Shown one piece after another: positions 4,706-63,558 of a stretch of 64,000 nucleotides of DNA. Within the stretch, counting starts at the first letter, position 1; every line of letters begins with the position of its first letter. The notes beneath the pieces were generated by a model. It saw only the letters and a program-made list of their open reading frames with translations, made no database searches and had not been told where the DNA came from. Location of the stretch: contig BLLK01000045.1 in the NCBI GenBank assembly GCA_021927905.1, forward strand, positions 496,001 to 560,000, given 5' to 3'. Made by a program: the position numbers and the translations under genes. Origin of the DNA: Chaetoceros tenuissimus (Eukaryota; Bacillariophyta; Thalassiosirophyceae; Chaetocerotales; Chaetocerotaceae).

Positions 4706-4778
4706 TTCCGGATCGGGGACTCGAACCCCGGGATCCTGCGTGAAAGGCAAGTATGTTAACCACCTACATCAATCCGGA
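4706..4778 (-). tRNA. tRNA-Glu (anticodon UUC)
   Basis: On the minus strand the sequence folds as a full cloverleaf: acceptor TCCGGAT/ATCCGGA (perfect 7 bp), D stem ATGT/ACAT with GGTGG in the loop, anticodon stem CTTGC/GCAGG with loop CTTTCAC giving anticodon TTC, and T arm CGGGG-TTCGAGT-CCCCG. The discriminator base is A. No intron is present. A run of five T downstream on the minus strand (4696-4700) can serve as the RNA polymerase III terminator. The tRNA reads GAA and, by wobble, GAG. Confidence 0.93.
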
Positions 4779-8017: not shown

Positions 8018-10096
8018 TTAAAGCCCATGTTTGTAAAGCTCATATAGACTTGAGGGGCAACGACCCCTACCTCTCATTTCGTTCGCTGCACTATTCTTAA
8101 CTGCAGCTCCATCAGTATTAGAAAGCATCAGGTCCCATTCCAACATGATTTGCCTCAATTGATGACTAAGAATCCAATCAAAAGATTCCACAACTTCTTG
8201 ATTGTAATAAATCCCGTTTCCACCTTCCAAAGAATTCACTCTAGCCTCAATATTACCCAGTGTACAGTCATATAGATTCGAATCACCGCGACTATTAGGG
8301 ACCAAAGTTGTTGCTTCCTGTAAAGACCATGTTGGTGGTTGTACAGGGTATCTTGAATCAATTTTGACTTGGCACTTGAGGGTCTTTGTATTACATTTCA
8401 AAGTTAAGGCATAGATTACGGAATTGTCATCATTTGCAAGCTCACTGAAATTCAAAATCTTTGTTTTAAAATCACTTGGGTCGACGGAGGGATGAACATT
8501 CACAACGCCATTTCCAAAACTTTTCAAATGCTGGCGAAGAACTACATGCGATCGCACTCTTCTCTGGATTAATTGCATCATAGTTTTCATACTTGCTTCA
8601 ATCTGAGATTGGGTCATCATATCATTATTCTCTAAATTTTCTCCCAAATGTTTTGAAGTGAAATTCAGACCAGCTACATATTGGCACCAGTTGTAAGGTC
8701 TACCAATTTCTGAGGATGTGAAGAAACTTTGACGAAGTTTCCAAAGGGCCATCTGACTCAAAGAAGGAACTTCCTCATTTTCTTCTTCCATATCAAAGTC
8801 AATTCCATCCTCTTCTGTTTCAACATTTCTTGTTTCTATAACTCCTGACAAGGAATGAGAATTACTGTCAGCATCAATTTTCAAGATAATGTTCTCAGCT
8901 GATCCCGTAGGTAGATCTTGTCCATTATCATTTTCTATCAAGTCTTGAAGCAATAAACTGCTAACAGTTTTGCTCGTCTTTGATTTTGAAGACCAAAGTA
9001 ATTCACTAGCTTTATCTTGCACCACTCTAGCTGTGACGAAGTTTAATTCCGAGTAATACTCAAACTCAACTTTCAACATTTCATCTTTCGACCCATTCTT
9101 GACAGGAATTTGTAACTGTATACATTTTTCGTTCTTTCTTACAAGTTTCTTGTACATAGCAGCTAGTTTTTCATTTTCAGTATTGATCTCCATACTGGTG
9201 TCATTATCGATATCTTTGATTGTGACAGACCACCCGCTATATAATGGACTGTCTTTGTTGGCGTGAATAAAGGTTTTCAATTGCACATAGAGCGTATACA
9301 ATGGTCCACAAAGATTTCCAGCAACTTCATCCCTTTCATCAGTTGTCAGTGACAAAGAAGTCTCTGGATGATTGAAGTCCTGAAAATGCTTTTTAATTAC
9401 ATCCATACCCTTTTCTAATTGCTCGATTTGTTTAGGTACTGATGCCAAAAACTTCCTCTTCTTGTTCAACTCTTGAAGGAGCTGAGATTTCTCTTTCTTA
9501 GCTTTGAGGACTTGAGTATGAAGCGATCCACGAGTAGATAGTTCTTGGTGTAATTTGGATAGATTTGCACTATGTCTTGCAGTATCATGGTGTGAATATG
9601 TCGCAGTACCTTCTTTTCTTGCAGCTTTAGATGGCGCAAGAAATATATCTATTATTTCGTCTTGATCCATTTCCTCAGTGGCATCTTCTGCTTTATTTTC
9701 TTCATTAATTTCATTAGATGCGACCTCAAGCTCATCCTTTGCCATTTTGAAGAGAAAGGTAGAGTCAACTTGTGTACAACTTCTTATTTCATTTTCCAGA
9801 TGATTCTTTTCGTATAAGATATTCTGCAATAAAAGTGCTTCATTTTCAACTTGTCTTCGTTTCAAATTTACCTGCGCTGAAATATCAGACCCTACCAACA
9901 GACCTAGCTGTCTCTGACTTTTCTTTAGTTGCAACATCTGAGTGGTTGTAGCAGATGACAGTTCACCAATTTTCTTTTCACTTCCTGGTTTGCAGTTGTC
10001 CATCATAGATTTGATGGACGAGATCAAAGCTGCGGAAGCTCCAGACGATGCATCATATGTGGAGGACGCGACTTCACTTTCTTCCTGTACCTTCAT
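8018..10096 (-). CDS. THOC5: THO complex subunit 5 (THOC5) homologue
   Basis: A 692-residue intronless protein, close to human THOC5 length (683). Recognisable features are the conserved coiled-coil core (LHQELSTRGSLHTQVL, then a Lys-rich helix and IEQLEKGM), the following LCGPLYTLYVQLKTF block, and a C-terminal half with RRVRSHVVLRQHL and strands typical of the family. THOC5 belongs to the THO/TREX complex, which couples transcription to mRNA packaging and nuclear export. The ATG at 10096 is used; an in-frame TTG just upstream is not. An acidic patch (about 440-455) interrupts the middle. The gene is convergent with the SGNH gene. Confidence 0.87.
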   Translation of the reverse strand: MKVQEESEVASSTYDASSGASAALISSIKSMMDNCKPGSEKKIGELSSATTTQMLQLKKSQRQLGLLVGSDISAQVNLKRRQVENEALLLQNILYEKNHLENEIRSCTQVDSTFLFKMAKDELEVASNEINEENKAEDATEEMDQDEIIDIFLAPSKAARKEGTATYSHHDTARHSANLSKLHQELSTRGSLHTQVLKAKKEKSQLLQELNKKRKFLASVPKQIEQLEKGMDVIKKHFQDFNHPETSLSLTTDERDEVAGNLCGPLYTLYVQLKTFIHANKDSPLYSGWSVTIKDIDNDTSMEINTENEKLAAMYKKLVRKNEKCIQLQIPVKNGSKDEMLKVEFEYYSELNFVTARVVQDKASELLWSSKSKTSKTVSSLLLQDLIENDNGQDLPTGSAENIILKIDADSNSHSLSGVIETRNVETEEDGIDFDMEEENEEVPSLSQMALWKLRQSFFTSSEIGRPYNWCQYVAGLNFTSKHLGENLENNDMMTQSQIEASMKTMMQLIQRRVRSHVVLRQHLKSFGNGVVNVHPSVDPSDFKTKILNFSELANDDNSVIYALTLKCNTKTLKCQVKIDSRYPVQPPTWSLQEATTLVPNSRGDSNLYDCTLGNIEARVNSLEGGNGIYYNQEVVESFDWILSHQLRQIMLEWDLMLSNTDGAAVKNSAANEMRGRGRCPSSLYELYKHGL

Positions 10097-10474
10097 AGCC
10101 AATGCTTGGTTCGATTATTACTTTTCGCAAGAGCTCCACAATCAAACAAAACTCAGTACCGATTTACGTAGTGAGGCACTACTGAGAAATTGCACAACTA
10201 GTAATTAGTTAGTGTAATTTGTATCAAGTGCATGATAGTGCATCTCAGCTGATCATCTCATTAATGCTATGGAAAGTACCTATGCATAGAGTACGTACGC
10301 ACCAACCTCGTAAAAAATAGAGTGTCCTCAAAATTCAAAGTCAAAATTCTATTTTCATTTCAAAGAGCAAATAGAAATACATAAATGAAACTATTCAAAT
10401 TTACCATCGTATGGTAGCAATACGTACTCAAGTATAATCTATTATATATTCTTTACAACAAAAATAATAATTAT
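10097..10474. other. Intergenic, THOC5 promoter side / FkbM 3' side
   Basis: Both neighbours read on the minus strand. The stretch holds GTACGTACG at 10291-10300 and TACGTA at 10421, members of a palindromic motif that recurs in intergenic DNA of this window. Nothing coding was seen. Confidence 0.5.
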
Positions 10475-12024: not shown

Positions 12025-15000
12025 ATGAGGATTTCCCATGTAACTTTGCTTTATACACTTCTAGCATCAAGTGCTACACCTTCAGCAGCACTTTTTGTGC
12101 CACAACATAGTGTACGTGCATATGTATCTACAGAACGACTTTTCGCCTCTCCAAAGCCACTTTTTGCCACACCTGATGGGGAAGAGTCAGAAAAGGAAAA
12201 ATCTCAGCCGCCATCTATGGACAATACCAGTTCAAAAGCACTAGATGGCGTTGATGAAGTTGTAGCTGAGGCTGAAGCAGCATTGAAGGAGGCCCAAAAA
12301 GCGATGAATGAGCTTCAGAGTGAAAGCGAAGGAAATAATGTGAAAGAGGAGAAAAAGGTACCAAAACCACCAGCACCTCCAGTGCCTCCAAAGGCTGTAC
12401 CTGTGGAAAACATTGTTGAAAAGCCAAACGTATTGGTGCCGGAAGTAGATCCTGAGGAACTTCGTGTAGAGCAGGAAAGACTACGTGCTGAACAGGAAAT
12501 GAAAGCACAGCAGATGAGAGAAGCGGAAATTGCACGAAAGCAAGCTGCAGACAAGTTCAAAGATGAAGCATTGACCTCTGCAGTTGGTGGTGCAGCTCTT
12601 GGGGCACTTGCAGGTGCAGCTGTTGATATGTACCTTGACACTCAAGGTATCACAGAGATCGAACCAATTATACCACCTGTTCTTTTGGGAGTATCACTTG
12701 GAGCTGCAACGAATACTCTTGGGAAACAAGACAATGCAATCGGAGGAGCTGTCCGAACTGTTTTTGGTGGAGCAGTGAAGGGAATAAAGAATGCAGTTAC
12801 ATCTGCTGTAAGTAATGCTGTAAATAGTGCAGTTGAAGAAGTAAAAGCTACTCCAACAAAAGTCAAGACAGCAGTTGATAAAAAGGTCAAAGAAACGACT
12901 GATGAAATTAAAGCAATCCCTGGCAAAGTTTCAGCAAAGGCGAGTGAAACTGCAGAAGAAATTAGCAATGAGATTAAAGCTATCCCTGAAAAAGTAAAGG
13001 ATTCTGCTGCAAAAACTGCTGAAAGAACCAAAACTGAAATTGAAACTGCGACAAAGAAAGCTGTAGAAGAAGTCAAGGCAACTCCAGGTAAAATTGCCGA
13101 CTCGACTAAAAAGGCTGTTGTGAAGACTATTGAAGATGTTGAAACTTCTATCGAAAACACCGTGAAGGAAACGGAGAGAAAAATTACCGAGACTGTTGAT
13201 GAAGTTGTAGCACTCCCTACCAAGACGGTGGAAAAGGTGAGTACTTGTAGAAGTAATAATTACAACAAATCTCAAATCTTTTGCTTGTTTTCTAACAATC
13301 AAATAGATTTCAGAAACTGTATCCAATGTGATCCCTTCAGGTGAGAAGAAAGCTCCACCAGTTGTACCAAAACCTCCAGAGATGCCTCCACCCCCATCAC
13401 TCCTGAAAGAGCTTGAAAAGGATCCATCTACTATTAAACCACCACCTCCACCAAAGCAAACAGAAAAGAAAGATATCACTCCTCCTTCTCTACCAAAGGT
13501 TGACTTACCGAAAATCGAAGTACCAAAGATCGAAGTTCCAAAGGTCAATATTCCAAAGGCACCTGTACCAAAACCACCCGCGCCAAAGGTGGAAAATGCA
13601 GCAATTACACCTCCTGCTCCAAAAAAGAAGGAGCAGAAAAAGAAAGTTGAGGATAATTTTGTTTTCAGTGAAGTCAGTTTGAAGGAGTTTGTTTCAAAAG
13701 ACAAAGATTCCAAAGCAGCAGAAGAGCAAATTGAAAAGCAAACTGTTCAAAAAAGTACTCCAAAGAAAGATACACCAAATATCTTCAACCTCGGGGGACA
13801 ACCAAAGAAGACGCCAACAAAGGGAAGTGATTCGCCGGTCAAGGCTTCAGCTGAGTCCGATAGACCAAACATATTCTCCATCAAAAAGCAGCAAGATGAA
13901 GAAAAGAAAGCAGCAAACAAATTGTTAGACGAGAAAAAGGCTGCACAGGCACAAGCAGCAGAAGACAAGAAGAAAAAAGCTGAAGAACGCAGACTTACGC
14001 AAATTGAAGCTGCAGCAGAAAAGAAGAGACAGGCCGAAGAAAAGAGACAAGCACAGCTTGCAGTAATTGCCGAAAAGAAGCGACTTGCGGAGGAGAAGAA
14101 GGCAGAAGCTACACTAAGAAAGAAGGAAGCAGAGGAGAAGAAGTCAGCTGAGAAAAAGTTGAACAAGGCAAAACCAGGAGCTACTATTTCACTTGGATTT
14201 TTCGGTTTTGGAGGTCAAAAGGATGTGGAAGAAGAAGTCTCGAGAGCAAATACAGCTGCGCCAAAGGGTATCCCGACCATTACCCAATGGAAGCAAAATG
14301 GTGATGGTTCAATTACCGGTTTGATTTCTGGATCAAATGCTTTTCAAAGTGGAGAGCAAGTAACAACATCTCCAATAAATGTCAAAGATCCTGCAGTAAA
14401 TACAGTCGTGACAACTGTGTCCGGTTCAAAGTAAGTGATTTACAAGATTTTATCAGAATACGTCACGATTTCTACTTTATGCTAACAGCCATTTAGATAT
14501 TATTTGGGTAAAAGTGCAGGTGGTGGGTTCTTTGGAATAGCAGGACCAAGATCAGTATCCCCTGCATCTGCTCCGCCCACTCAATCCGAGCCAAAAGAAG
14601 ACCGTGTTGCTGCAGCGAGAAAGATTGCTGAGGAAAGAAAGGCAGCTGCACTCAAAGCAGCTGAAGAGCGCAAACGACAAGCAGAAGAACGACGTGCTGC
14701 AGCTGATGCAAAAAGACGCGAAGCAGAAGAGAAGCGTCAAGCATCGATTGCAGCAAGAAACGAAGCAGCTGCAAAAAGACAGGCTGAACAGAAAATCCAA
14801 AAAGCAACTCGTGGAGCTACAGTTTCTTTAGGCTTTTTCAACTTTGGAGGGAGTTCCGAACAAGAAGAGTCTGTATCGAAGTCTGTTCCAAAAGGAGTCC
14901 CTGTACTATCCAAATGGAAACAAAACCCTGACGGTTCTGTGACAGGATTTGTCTCAGGTTCAAGAGCATTTAAAAACGGAGAGTCTATCACAACATCAGT

Positions 15001-17182
15001 TCTGAAAGAAAAGAACCCTTCACCTGACTCAGTTGTCACTACAGTATCCGGATCCAAGTGAGTAATTATATGCCCTTTTTCTTTTAACTTTTAAAAAATT
15101 GTCCTAACAATGTTTCATAAGGTATTTCCTTGATACAAAACAAGGAGGCGCAAGCATCGGAGGCGGATTCTTCGGAGCTCGTACAAGCCCATCACCATCT
15201 CCAGCACCACAAGATAACTTGAAAGCCAAAATGGATATGGCTGCTGAAAAGAGAAAAGCAGATGCAGAAGCTCGCAAGAGGGCAGCTGAAGAAAAACGTT
15301 TACGCGCTGTAGAGGCTGCAGAGGCTAGAAAACGAGACGCTGCTGAAAAGAAGGCAGCACAAGAAGCAGCAAAAAGAGCACAGAAAAGTCAGGAAACTGT
15401 GGCAACCGCGAAGCCACGCACTACAATTTCTCTTGGATTCCTCAACTTTGGAGATTCATCTTCTGCAGTACCTACAGGAGCACCAGCGGGCATCCCGACA
15501 ATTACCAAGTGGAGACAGAACAACGACGGATCAATCACTGGTCTCATCTCTGGTTCAAATGCATTCCGTAACGGAGAGTCGGTGACAACTTCAGTAATTA
15601 AAGGAAATGCGAGCGACAATACTGTAGTACAGACCATCTCTGGCTCAAAGTACTATCTTTCAAACAAACCTGTATCGGCACCAAAAAAAGCAGCACCAGC
15701 TCCATCACCATCACAGAAGGCTCAACAAGCAAAGGCGAAGTCTGTAGTGGATAATGCGAAATCTGGCGCAACCATTTCTCTTGGTTTCTTGAACTTTGGT
15801 GCAGGAGATAAGACAAAAGAGGTACCTTCTAATGTTGCTCCAAAAATTGTTTCTCAGGCACCAAAAGGAGTACCTTCAATATCAAAATGGAGACAAAATA
15901 GGGATGGCTCAATTACAGGAATTATCTCTGGATCTAATGCCTACAATGATGGGGAGTCTATCACAACATCTCCTATAACCTCTGAAGCCACAGATGGTGC
16001 ACTGGTACAGACTTCTTCTGGATCGAAGTAAGTTTCTATTTTGTTATTCTGACATTGTCTAGATATGTCAACTTTTACTAACCACTATGGTGTAGATATT
16101 TCTTGGAAGCGAAACCTAAAGCAGGAGGATTCTTCGGAGGGACAAGGGCTCCGCCTCCAAGCCAGGCATCATCAAAAGGAACAGATAGTAAGGCGTCAGC
16201 TCTCGAAGCGCAAAAGAGAGCAGCAGAGGAGAAAAGACAAGCGGCACTTGCTGCAGCTGAAGCAAAGAAAGAAGCTGCACGCGCTGCTGCTGAAGCCAGA
16301 AAGAGAGAGGCTGAGGAAAAGAGAGAGGCAGCACGTGCCGCAGCTGAAGCAAAGAAGAAAGAAGCCGAGGAAAAGAGAAAGGCACTTGCAGAAGAGAGAA
16401 AGCGACAGGCAGAAGAGAAGCGTCAAGCTGCAATAGCTGCAGTTGAAGCGAAGAAACGCGAGGCTGAGTCTAAGAAGCAAGCCTCATCACAAGCTAAACA
16501 GGCCCAGAAAGCGATGGAAACTGCAAAGCCAGGAGCAACTATTTCTCTAGGATTCTTGAATTTTGGCAAGAGTAACGAAGCACAAGGAGCTCCTCCTGTA
16601 CAACAAAATGGCAAGAAGCCTGCGAAGAAAATGGCATCCGCACCTCGTGGTACACCAACCATGTACAACTGGAGGCAGAATCGCGATGGATCAATCACTG
16701 GAAAAATTTCAGGAGCCACAGCATACAGCGATGGGGAATCAGTAACAACATCTCCACTTGCTACAGATGCTGACTTTGGTGCTCTTGTCCAGACTACATC
16801 CGGTTCAAAGTATTATTTGGCTGAGAAGGGCGCAAAGATTCCTCAGGCAGGTAGTGCAGCTGCACCTTCTACGAAGACTGGGTTTTCGTTCGGGTCTCCT
16901 GCAAAGACAAAATCTGTTACTCCAGCCTCAACAAAGACTGCATTTGGCGTCGGTAAACCACAAGCTGCAGCAAAGCCACCCGCCAAGAAACCTGCTCCTC
17001 GAGGTGTACCAATTCTTTCTAGATGGAGACAGAATCGTGATTCTTCGATCACTGGATTGATTAGTGGATCACCCGGGTTTGATGATGGTGAGAGAATTAC
17101 TACAAGTCCAATTGCAAAAGGTACAGTAGCAGAAGGACAAGTAGTCCAGACTGGATCTGGTTCAAGATATTACTTGGACTGA
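12025..17182 (+). CDS. Large modular protein with six C-terminal repeat modules, probably plastid-targeted, 5 exons
   Basis: Exons 12025-13236, 13307-14430, 14497-15057, 15122-16027 and 16096-17182 give 1,629 residues. The N-terminus is a signal peptide ending near SAALF, a possible plastid motif. Then come an acidic helical and Pro-rich part (to 185), a Gly/Ala zipper-like hydrophobic region (about 185-255), amphipathic repeats of about 22 residues with A-x-P-x-K-V turns (260-405), and a Pro-rich stretch with KIEVPKIEVPK (about 410-510). After that, Ala/Glu/Lys/Arg-rich helices alternate with six modules starting near 690, 884, 1064, 1181, 1412 and 1566. A module contains ATISLGFLNFG, a variable linker, WRQNRDGSITG-x-ISGS, then ITTS and SGSKYYL. 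The last copy lacks the first motif and ends the protein. Function is unknown; a scaffold role is inference. The module may recur in other diatom proteins, which I cannot check here. Confidence 0.85.
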
Positions 17183-17335: not shown

Positions 17336-18001
17336 TCACACAAGTTCTTGTTCAAATTGTACCCCATCCTCATCATTTTGATTTACTGCTTGCCAGCCCT
17401 TGTTTTCTTTCGGAGGCCATTTGCCTGCTTGGATCAGTCTTGAAAGCAGGACATCTTTCCCTACTTTTGTTACTACAGCAATAGCTTCTCCTTGCAAAAC
17501 AACTGAACCACAATTTAATTCTTCTGCATCAACTGTTCCATCTCTATTCAAAGTTATCGTCCTTGGCTTCACAACTCCATCAATTGCAGAAGCATCGATA
17601 ATTAATTCGGTAACGTCACAGTCATTATTACCTTCTTCAAGATCTTCCTCTCCATCCGCAACCAAGTCTGCCCCCAAGCTCAAGAGTTTTAAATCAGCTG
17701 GAATAATGTCATTTTCGTGAATTCTAACTATATCCCCAACACCTAAACTACTACTGTCATAACAAACCCATCTATTTCCTAAGCGAACCTCAGCGTCTAC
17801 AGGAATAATTTTTTTATATAATTTCATGGTCGGTAAATGGTTGATACAGGGTAATATGACACATGCCCATTTTGGAAGGTTCCACGGTGGTGTAATAATA
17901 TTCATTTCATTAGTATCAACGTTTGATTTTGATCCAGTTGAGTAATTTGTCGACAAAGATTCTAGTAAATCTCTTTGCTCCTGCGATAAATGAGGCTTCA
18001 T
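17336..18001 (-). CDS. Stand-alone P-type ATPase actuator-domain-like protein
   Basis: A 221-residue protein with an ATG at 18001. Residues about 75-205 resemble the A domain of P-type cation ATPases: VRLGNRWVCYDSSSLGVGDI, RIHENDIIPADLKLLSLGA, LNCGSVVLQGEAIAVVTKVG. Where active pumps have the TGE(S) dephosphorylation loop, this protein reads DASAIDGVVKP. It has no phosphorylation domain (DKTGT), no nucleotide domain and no proper membrane bundle, and is about a quarter of a pump's length. A short hydrophobic stretch (WACVILPCINHLP) may touch a membrane. It cannot be a pump by itself; a regulatory role or a relic is possible. Convergent with the modular protein gene, 153 bp apart. Confidence 0.65.
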   Translation of the reverse strand: MKPHLSQEQRDLLESLSTNYSTGSKSNVDTNEMNIITPPWNLPKWACVILPCINHLPTMKLYKKIIPVDAEVRLGNRWVCYDSSSLGVGDIVRIHENDIIPADLKLLSLGADLVADGEEDLEEGNNDCDVTELIIDASAIDGVVKPRTITLNRDGTVDAEELNCGSVVLQGEAIAVVTKVGKDVLLSRLIQAGKWPPKENKGWQAVNQNDEDGVQFEQELV

Positions 18002-18273
18002 CTTTGTTAAGAAAAAATGATAATATTTATTGGGACCAAATACAAATATGCTTTATGTATCTGTTGAGACTATGTTATTATAGATCATGTGTATATTCAA
18101 GGTAATACAAATCTCTCTATCTATTGTTGTCATCAAAAAGAGAAGAAAGCTCACTCGATCTTTTCCAATGTCCAATGATGTTGGGAGTAAATGTGTCATA
18201 GCACAATTTTAGACGTATTAGACACAGAGAAAATACTGAAGTCAACATGTACGTACTATCGATTTTCAAGGTT

Positions 18274-63485: not shown

Positions 63486-63558
63486 CACCCACGGCGGGGA
63501 TCGAACCCGCGACCACACGGTTAAAAGCCGGGCGCTCTACCGACTGAGCTACGTGGAC
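63486..63558 (-). tRNA. tRNA-Lys (anticodon UUU)
   Basis: A minus-strand cloverleaf: acceptor GTCCACG/CGTGGGT (the two outermost pairs are G-U wobbles), D arm GCTC-AGTCGGTA-GAGC, anticodon stem CCCGG/CCGTG with one C-U mismatch, loop CTTTTAA giving anticodon TTT, variable loop TGGTC, and T arm GCGGG-TTCGATC-CCCGC. The discriminator G is usual for tRNA-Lys. No intron. A TTTT run just downstream (63475-63478 on this strand) can end RNA polymerase III transcription. Confidence 0.88.

Follow-up and report, generated by a model that had tools for sequence, protein, structure and literature searches.

A six-module, likely membrane-anchored scaffold protein in Chaetoceros tenuissimus and its diatom module family

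Gene model and features of the scaffold protein

We analyzed a 64,000-nucleotide window of the genome of the diatom Chaetoceros tenuissimus (contig BLLK01000045.1, positions 496,001 to 560,000; coordinates below are those of the window) and focus here on a forward-strand gene at 12025-17182 whose product, referred to here as the scaffold protein, contains six copies of a module of approximately 61 residues. Based on splice-site inspection and stop-to-stop frames, from DNA alone, the gene is predicted to have five exons and to encode 1629 residues with a single terminal stop. The ATG lies at 12025, the stop codon at 17180-17182, and the protein has an isoelectric point (pI) of 9.6. A first-pass annotation had placed six units in a single protein at 14170-17182; our gene model puts all six in one spliced product, and that span covers the C-terminal part of the gene but not the whole, since the predicted start is at 12025. 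The features of the gene are listed below (a hyphen in SGSK-YYL marks the splice position).

12025..12174 (+), N-terminal signal- or transit-like segment, residues 1-50, MRISHVTLLYTLLASSATPSAALFVPQ, without the canonical A-F motif by a hydropathy and motif rule
12568..12723 (+), glycine-zipper-like hydrophobic hairpin, residues 182-200 and 215-233, likely membrane anchor
12802..13354 (+), amphipathic repeats interspersed with xTPGKV/xIPGKV, residues 260-420, with intron 1 inside
13237-13306 (+), intron 1, from splice-site inspection
13364..13639 (+), proline-rich segment, residues 424-515
13658..13690 (+), short element FVFSEVSLKEF, residues 522-532, located after the proline-rich segment and before the helices
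13877..14173 (+), charged E/K/R/A helix-like stretch 0, residues 595-693
14180..14215 (+), FG-type element 1, ATISLGFFGFGG
14261..14509 (+), module 1, residues 723-783, split by intron 2
14431-14496 (+), intron 2, phase 2, within SGSK-YYL
14594..14812 (+), charged helix-like stretch 1, residues 812-884
14816..14848 (+), FG-type element 2, ATVSLGFFNFG
14888..15134 (+), module 2, residues 910-970, split by intron 3
15058-15121 (+), intron 3, phase 2, same codon as intron 2
15210..15413 (+), charged helix-like stretch 2, residues 996-1063
15420..15452 (+), FG-type element 3, TTISLGFLNFG
15483..15662 (+), module 3, residues 1087-1146
15768..15800 (+), FG-type element 4, ATISLGFLNFG
15861..16108 (+), module 4, residues 1213-1272, split by intron 4
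16028-16095 (+), intron 4, phase 2, same codon as intron 2
16181..16528 (+), charged helix-like stretch 4, the longest at 116 residues, residues 1297-1412
16535..16567 (+), FG-type element 5, ATISLGFLNFG
16643..16822 (+), module 5, residues 1451-1510, the copy used for structure prediction
16874..16957 (+), FG-rich spacer GFSFG...AFGVG, residues 1528-1555
16997..17179 (+), module 6, residues 1569-1629, abutting the stop codon

Six related modules alternate with charged linkers

We found that the six copies are 47-73% identical to one another and that each carries one of the six tryptophans of the scaffold protein. The sequence motifs that had been proposed for all copies hold for only some of them. 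WRQN is exact in four modules and reads WKQN in two, DGSITG is likewise exact in four of the six and not in the remaining two, ITTS occurs in three with VTTS in the other three, and the terminal SGSKYYL is found in three, with SGSKYFL in two and SGSRYYL in one. When module 1 was used as a query against the C. tenuissimus genome (41 Mb, 68 contigs), the other five copies were recovered with E values of 1.0e-21 to 8.6e-16, and three further loci with E values of 2.2e-18 to 6.5e-4. These E values indicate that the six-copy repeat is not due to chance.

Five modules have an ATISLGF-type element ahead of them, as had been described. The linkers between successive modules measure 126, 116, 66, 178, and 58 residues, so that the range is 58-178 residues and not the 80-230 first proposed. 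The linkers are basic (pI 10.1-10.6), and the modules range from pI 5.2 to 9.5. Four helix-like stretches of 68-116 residues contain no P, G, F, W, or Y, and their pairing of opposite charges at i/i+3 and i/i+4 exceeds that of composition-preserving shuffles (z of 3.1, 3.5, 3.3, and 5.7). Hydrophobic residues (I, L, V, or M) at heptad a/d positions are scarce in the same stretches (4 of 28, 2 of 21, 3 of 20, and 3 of 34). Given the charge pairing and the scarcity of heptad hydrophobics, single charged helices are expected, not coiled coils. A fifth helix-like stretch (residues 356-397) lies inside the amphipathic part; pairing was scored on the other four. The linker and pre-module stretches contain 11 FG dipeptides compared to 1.5 expected by shuffling, an excess that is inflated because the FG elements are themselves repeats.

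The module occurs in six genes of C. tenuissimus and in other diatoms

The module had been attributed to one protein. Genome searches rule this out, since they identified at least six genes, unrelated apart from the module, with several architectures and at least 17 modules, as follows (gene names other than that of the scaffold gene derive from our own handles).

Six-copy membrane scaffold gene, 12025-17182 (+): 6 modules
C17 gene: SnoaL-like halves, 2 modules
C47 gene: I29-like parts, 2 modules
C58 tail-anchored gene: 4 modules
C58 kinase gene: 2 modules, Pkinase at 74.6 bits (cut-off 31.7)
C16 gene: 1 module, 33.9 bits against the family profile

The C17 protein scores below the Pfam cut-offs for both SnoaL (20.2 bits, cut-off 28.4) and DUF4440 (19.0 bits, cut-off 25.2), and "SnoaL-like" is therefore to be taken as a lead. 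I29 scores above its cut-off in the relative P0046 (33.0 vs 24.4 bits) and below it in the C47 frames (21.1 and 17.5 vs 24.4). The two-module kinase, which has a plastid-type start, and the four-module tail-anchored protein lie at C58:341676-342149 and C58:345374-346618, on the same strand and separated by approximately 3 kb that contain at least one further open frame. Contig C58 encodes a protein 100% identical to P0001 of C. tenuissimus. At L035:1240-2142 we observed a single-module protein with a signal-like start, a hydrophobic C-terminal segment, and no Pfam family above cut-off.

Three protein searches (23, 25, and 97 hits) yielded 145 relatives. A family profile gave 386 matches, 370 of them near full length, in all 146 sequences (the 145 homologues and the scaffold protein), as expected since the searches that gave the relatives were seeded with module-bearing queries; some of the remaining 16 matches are single modules split in two. 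Among the 146 sequences we assigned 17 as membrane scaffolds, 18 as SnoaL-like, 5 as I29-like, 20 as tail-anchored, and 2 as kinases, and 84 are unassigned or fragments. Proteins of the scaffold class carry between one and seven modules. The tail-anchored class comprises the matches of the C58 search minus three weak ones, and a hydrophobic C-terminal segment is present in 19 of its 20 members. Across the family, an FG-type element lies upstream of 167 of the 372 modules with enough upstream sequence and is absent from the other 205.

The relatives that carry organism names, a minority of the hits, are all from diatoms: Chaetoceros tenuissimus, Chaetoceros sp. GSL56, Dactyliosolen fragilissimus, Leptocylindrus danicus, Amphiprora, Nitzschia inconspicua, Mayamaea pseudoterrestris, and one labelled Psemu1, which we take to be Pseudo-nitzschia multiseries. 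Neither Phaeodactylum tricornutum nor Thalassiosira pseudonana is among the named hits listed, where few hits are named and length limits applied. Prokaryotic and viral collections gave 338 and 27 pattern matches, respectively, none of which was confirmed by tblastn; since one module and exact peptide patterns were used, this search could reveal only close relatives.

The module is predicted to fold independently

Structure prediction of module 5 gave a five-stranded beta-barrel with a predicted local distance difference test score (pLDDT) of 93-96 in the core. The same fold is predicted for each of the four modules of the tail-anchored paralogue, with block means of 63-87 in a model whose mean pLDDT is 59.5. 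These predictions point to an independently folding domain, and the earlier description of a repeated module amid charged helices agrees with the predicted fold and the charge-pairing analysis. The module had also been described as one without a name, and indeed nothing in Pfam or NCBIfam scores above cut-off, no PDB sequence falls below E 0.17, and no match in any of the three reaches a trusted level.

The closest solved folds are the SANTA domain (M18BP1/KNL2) and the RFTS domain of DNMT1, a likeness that is weak, with Z too low to demonstrate kinship. The tail-anchored model returned SANTA at rank 2 and otherwise nothing notable. Sequence likeness to the SANTA family was not found: 52 modules gave no match to PF09133 in Pfam at E<=1 (fast filters on), and a reverse search found none in the C. 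tenuissimus genome but none in 14 controls either. Proteins that bear SANTA or RFTS domains are nuclear, and both domains are known mainly for protein interaction. PyShell is not among the 50 fold matches listed for the module and tail-anchored models, which does not exclude it. A literature lookup of motif strings and locus tags returned one match, which was unrelated. Titles and abstract openings of the papers listed describe no such module, and it may be described in the two 2024 Cell papers on the diatom pyrenoid (Nam; Shimakawa). A module common to several plastid-type diatom proteins and missing from our Pfam and NCBIfam searches would deserve a name whatever its partner.

The N-terminal half and plastid targeting

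Since the N-terminal half contains a hydrophobic hairpin and amphipathic repeats, the scaffold protein looks membrane-anchored and not like a free linker; we consider a membrane anchor likely. Gly-zipper matches to the hairpin region are sub-threshold, and the amphipathic repeats match Apolipoprotein E at 5e-5 and 23.5 bits, below the cut-off of 90. The apolipoprotein, Gly-zipper, TolA, fibrinogen-binding, and extensin matches were put aside as composition-driven and under curated cut-offs. In a scan that began after the first 60 residues, 14 of the 17 scaffold-type proteins had one or more hydrophobic 19-mers (mean hydropathy of at least 1.6), and a complete segment pair was recognized by eye in 12 of the 17. 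P0073, P0075, and P0079 have no hydrophobic 19-mer in the scanned part. An FVFSEVSLK-like element is present in eight of the 17 by a loose pattern and in two more unassigned fragments by a stricter one, and FVFSEVSLKEF could be a separate binding motif.

We next consider location, which had been proposed to be secretory or plastid. By our own loose hydropathy and motif rule (not SignalP or ASAFind), a signal-like start is found in 45 of the 62 assigned family proteins, and 36 of the 45 also carry an A-F-type motif; both features are present in all three further C. tenuissimus paralogues. Several of the 17 proteins without a signal-like start are evidently incomplete, and P0073 is probably a fragment whose "signal" is internal. 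The authors of ASAFind consider phenylalanine crucial, yet report that some sequences above the score cut-off may be without it (PMC4329603). The proposed location fits many family N-termini, which are plastid-type; the scaffold protein itself has no A-F motif. We read the scaffold protein as nucleus-encoded and probably plastid-targeted.

Evolution of the modules

Modules 1, 2, and 4 are each cut by an intron within SGSK-YYL. The C17 gene has an intron at the same codon and in the same phase, phase 2, in its own module 1. Among the 146 sequences, 11 open frames stop at an SGSK/R-like sequence and five start at RYYL or RYFL, which fits a shared intron elsewhere in the family. Two scaffold exons are symmetric (2-2), and exon duplication could therefore add modules.

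Modules 1, 3, 4, and 5 of the scaffold protein find their best match in the same-numbered module of both P0026 and P0027 (Chaetoceros sp. GSL56). Module 2 does so in P0026 but not P0027, and module 6 in neither. P0025 shows same-number best matches for just three modules (2, 5, and 6), and one-to-one order was not seen in P0024 (seven copies) or P0028 (five copies). A general one-to-one module order is thus partial in P0026 and P0027 and fails in P0024, P0025, and P0028.

A tree of 49 modules is poorly resolved, with 10 of 46 inner branches well supported. Within it, the scaffold, SnoaL-like, and I29-like modules cluster (98/84) separately from the tail-anchored and kinase modules, and both kinase modules group with five tail-anchored modules (93/86). 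The only C16 module has a very long branch. The two modules of the SnoaL-like P0035 of L. danicus, a protein with an unrelated N-terminal part, share 92% and 87% identity with module 1 of the scaffold P0066 from the same species; for module 2 of P0066 the values are 67% and 66%, and cross-species pairs in this comparison reach at most 77%. Both L. danicus sequences come from transcriptome collections, and an assembly effect is possible. No comparable excess of identity was found between the scaffold and SnoaL-like modules of C. tenuissimus.

Neighboring genes in the window

The downstream neighbor of the scaffold gene is an open frame at 17336-18052 (-) that matches an E1-E2 ATPase domain at 45.5 bits (cut-off 28.1). 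The window also contains the following features.

4706-4778 (-), tRNA-Glu
8018-10114 (-), Thoc5/FmiP open frame, 125.9 bits
46411-50784 (-), TPR-repeat open frame of 1457 residues
54468-57545 (+), open frame of 1025 residues with ankyrin repeats
63486-63558 (-), tRNA-Lys

A proposed docking-scaffold model and its alternatives

When a multivalent scaffold, tail-anchored proteins, enzyme-like proteins, and a kinase all carry one domain, the simplest reading of that domain is a docking tag for one abundant partner. We propose a membrane-anchored multivalent scaffold whose module is such a shared tag, a model for which we consider the chances evenly balanced. The N-terminal half, through its hydrophobic hairpin and amphipathic repeats, would sit on a plastid membrane, and the C-terminal part would form a chain in which basic charged helices, FG-type elements, and six beta-barrel modules alternate. 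The FG-type elements may serve as stickers. The module would act as a docking domain that gives the same address to the SnoaL-like, I29-like, and tail-anchored proteins and to the protein kinase, and the module-bearing proteins would be gathered on a common partner. The six-copy scaffold could cross-link this partner or tether it to the membrane. We infer that the partner is most likely Rubisco or another bulk pyrenoid component. By analogy, the principle of the Rubisco-binding motif may have evolved independently in diatoms, where a folded domain would replace the short motif, such that module-bearing proteins are recruited to Rubisco and organize the pyrenoid; we regard this more specific version as rather unlikely. 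The first-pass annotation had compared the repeat with Rubisco-condensing pyrenoid proteins. Its observation was confirmed, and its interpretation is supported in part.

Several results weigh against a Rubisco-linked plastid scaffold. The Volvocales motif, taken as [DN]W[RK]xx[LIVA], has no match in the 1629 residues, and the start of the scaffold protein, though signal-like, reads SAALFVPQ in place of the canonical A-F motif. Stickers of PYCO1, the Rubisco linker of Phaeodactylum tricornutum (PMC10288592), are likewise missing from the protein (KWSPR, KWSP, and GTGYNP, each 0), and a search of the C. tenuissimus genome for the exact KWSP[RQ]GG DNA pattern, run with no positive control, gave 0 matches. 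Given these missing motifs, membership in the PYCO1 or Volvocales motif family was rejected.

The hydrophobic hairpin, the amphipathic repeats, and the tail-anchored paralogue would also suit a structural cross-linker of thylakoid or envelope membranes, with a role in stacking, plastid shape, or division and no pyrenoid link, whose modules bind a membrane complex or one another. We consider this somewhat unlikely since, in our judgement, basic FG-bearing linkers and a module found on enzyme-like parts and a kinase better fit a recruiting hub. The basic charge of the protein and above all of its linkers, together with best solved folds that come from chromatin proteins, raises the question whether the protein binds DNA or RNA through its beta-barrel modules and basic helices and organizes the plastid nucleoid or ribosomes. 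This is improbable: the modules themselves span a wide pI range, SANTA and RFTS are known chiefly as protein-interaction domains, and a membrane hairpin would be unusual in a nucleoid core protein. We likewise give little credence to a scaffold in the periplastidic compartment or secretory system instead of the stroma. The A-F motif is lacking not only from the scaffold protein but also from P0027, P0026, P0045, and P0073; however, of the 16 scaffold-type proteins whose start was scored as signal-like, 11 have it, as do the C. tenuissimus paralogues C17, C47, C16, P0001, and P0021.

Comparison with known pyrenoid systems

The docking-scaffold model resembles the Rubisco-binding-motif (RBM) system of Chlamydomonas (EPYC1, RBMP1/2, SAGA1/2, KEY1), in which a multivalent protein shares one sequence unit with membrane proteins and with a kinase, as it does here. 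RBMP2 is described as combining membrane parts with six C-terminal motifs (PMC13345187), and in the KEY1 kinase the motif is reported to direct recruitment to the condensate (PMC13086578). The likeness is one of layout only. The RBM unit is described as a short motif that binds the Rubisco small subunit, whereas the diatom unit is a predicted folded domain. According to a 2023 review, the known motif is found only in Volvocales, and assembly through a common Rubisco-binding motif might extend to other algae with differing sequences (PMC10473226).

PYCO1 and the scaffold protein are alike in that both are diatom proteins with six repeats, a basic charge, and aromatic repeat motifs. However, PYCO1 is described as mostly disordered, whereas the scaffold protein has modules that are predicted to fold. 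With respect to the FLIPPer spacing for pyrenoid linkers (structured repeats 20-120 residues apart), three of the five scaffold linkers fall in range; the scaffold linkers look helical, and FLIPPer linkers are described as largely disordered. PyShell proteins are described in a review as structural proteins of the diatom pyrenoid. As much as 20% of global CO2 fixation is due to diatoms, and the authors of PYCO1 report no homologues in other sequenced algae (PMC10288592). If our Rubisco-based version were true, the module would organize the pyrenoid in diatoms without PYCO1. Its family, which includes membrane scaffolds, tail-anchored proteins, and kinases, is a concrete candidate for such a common Rubisco-binding unit.

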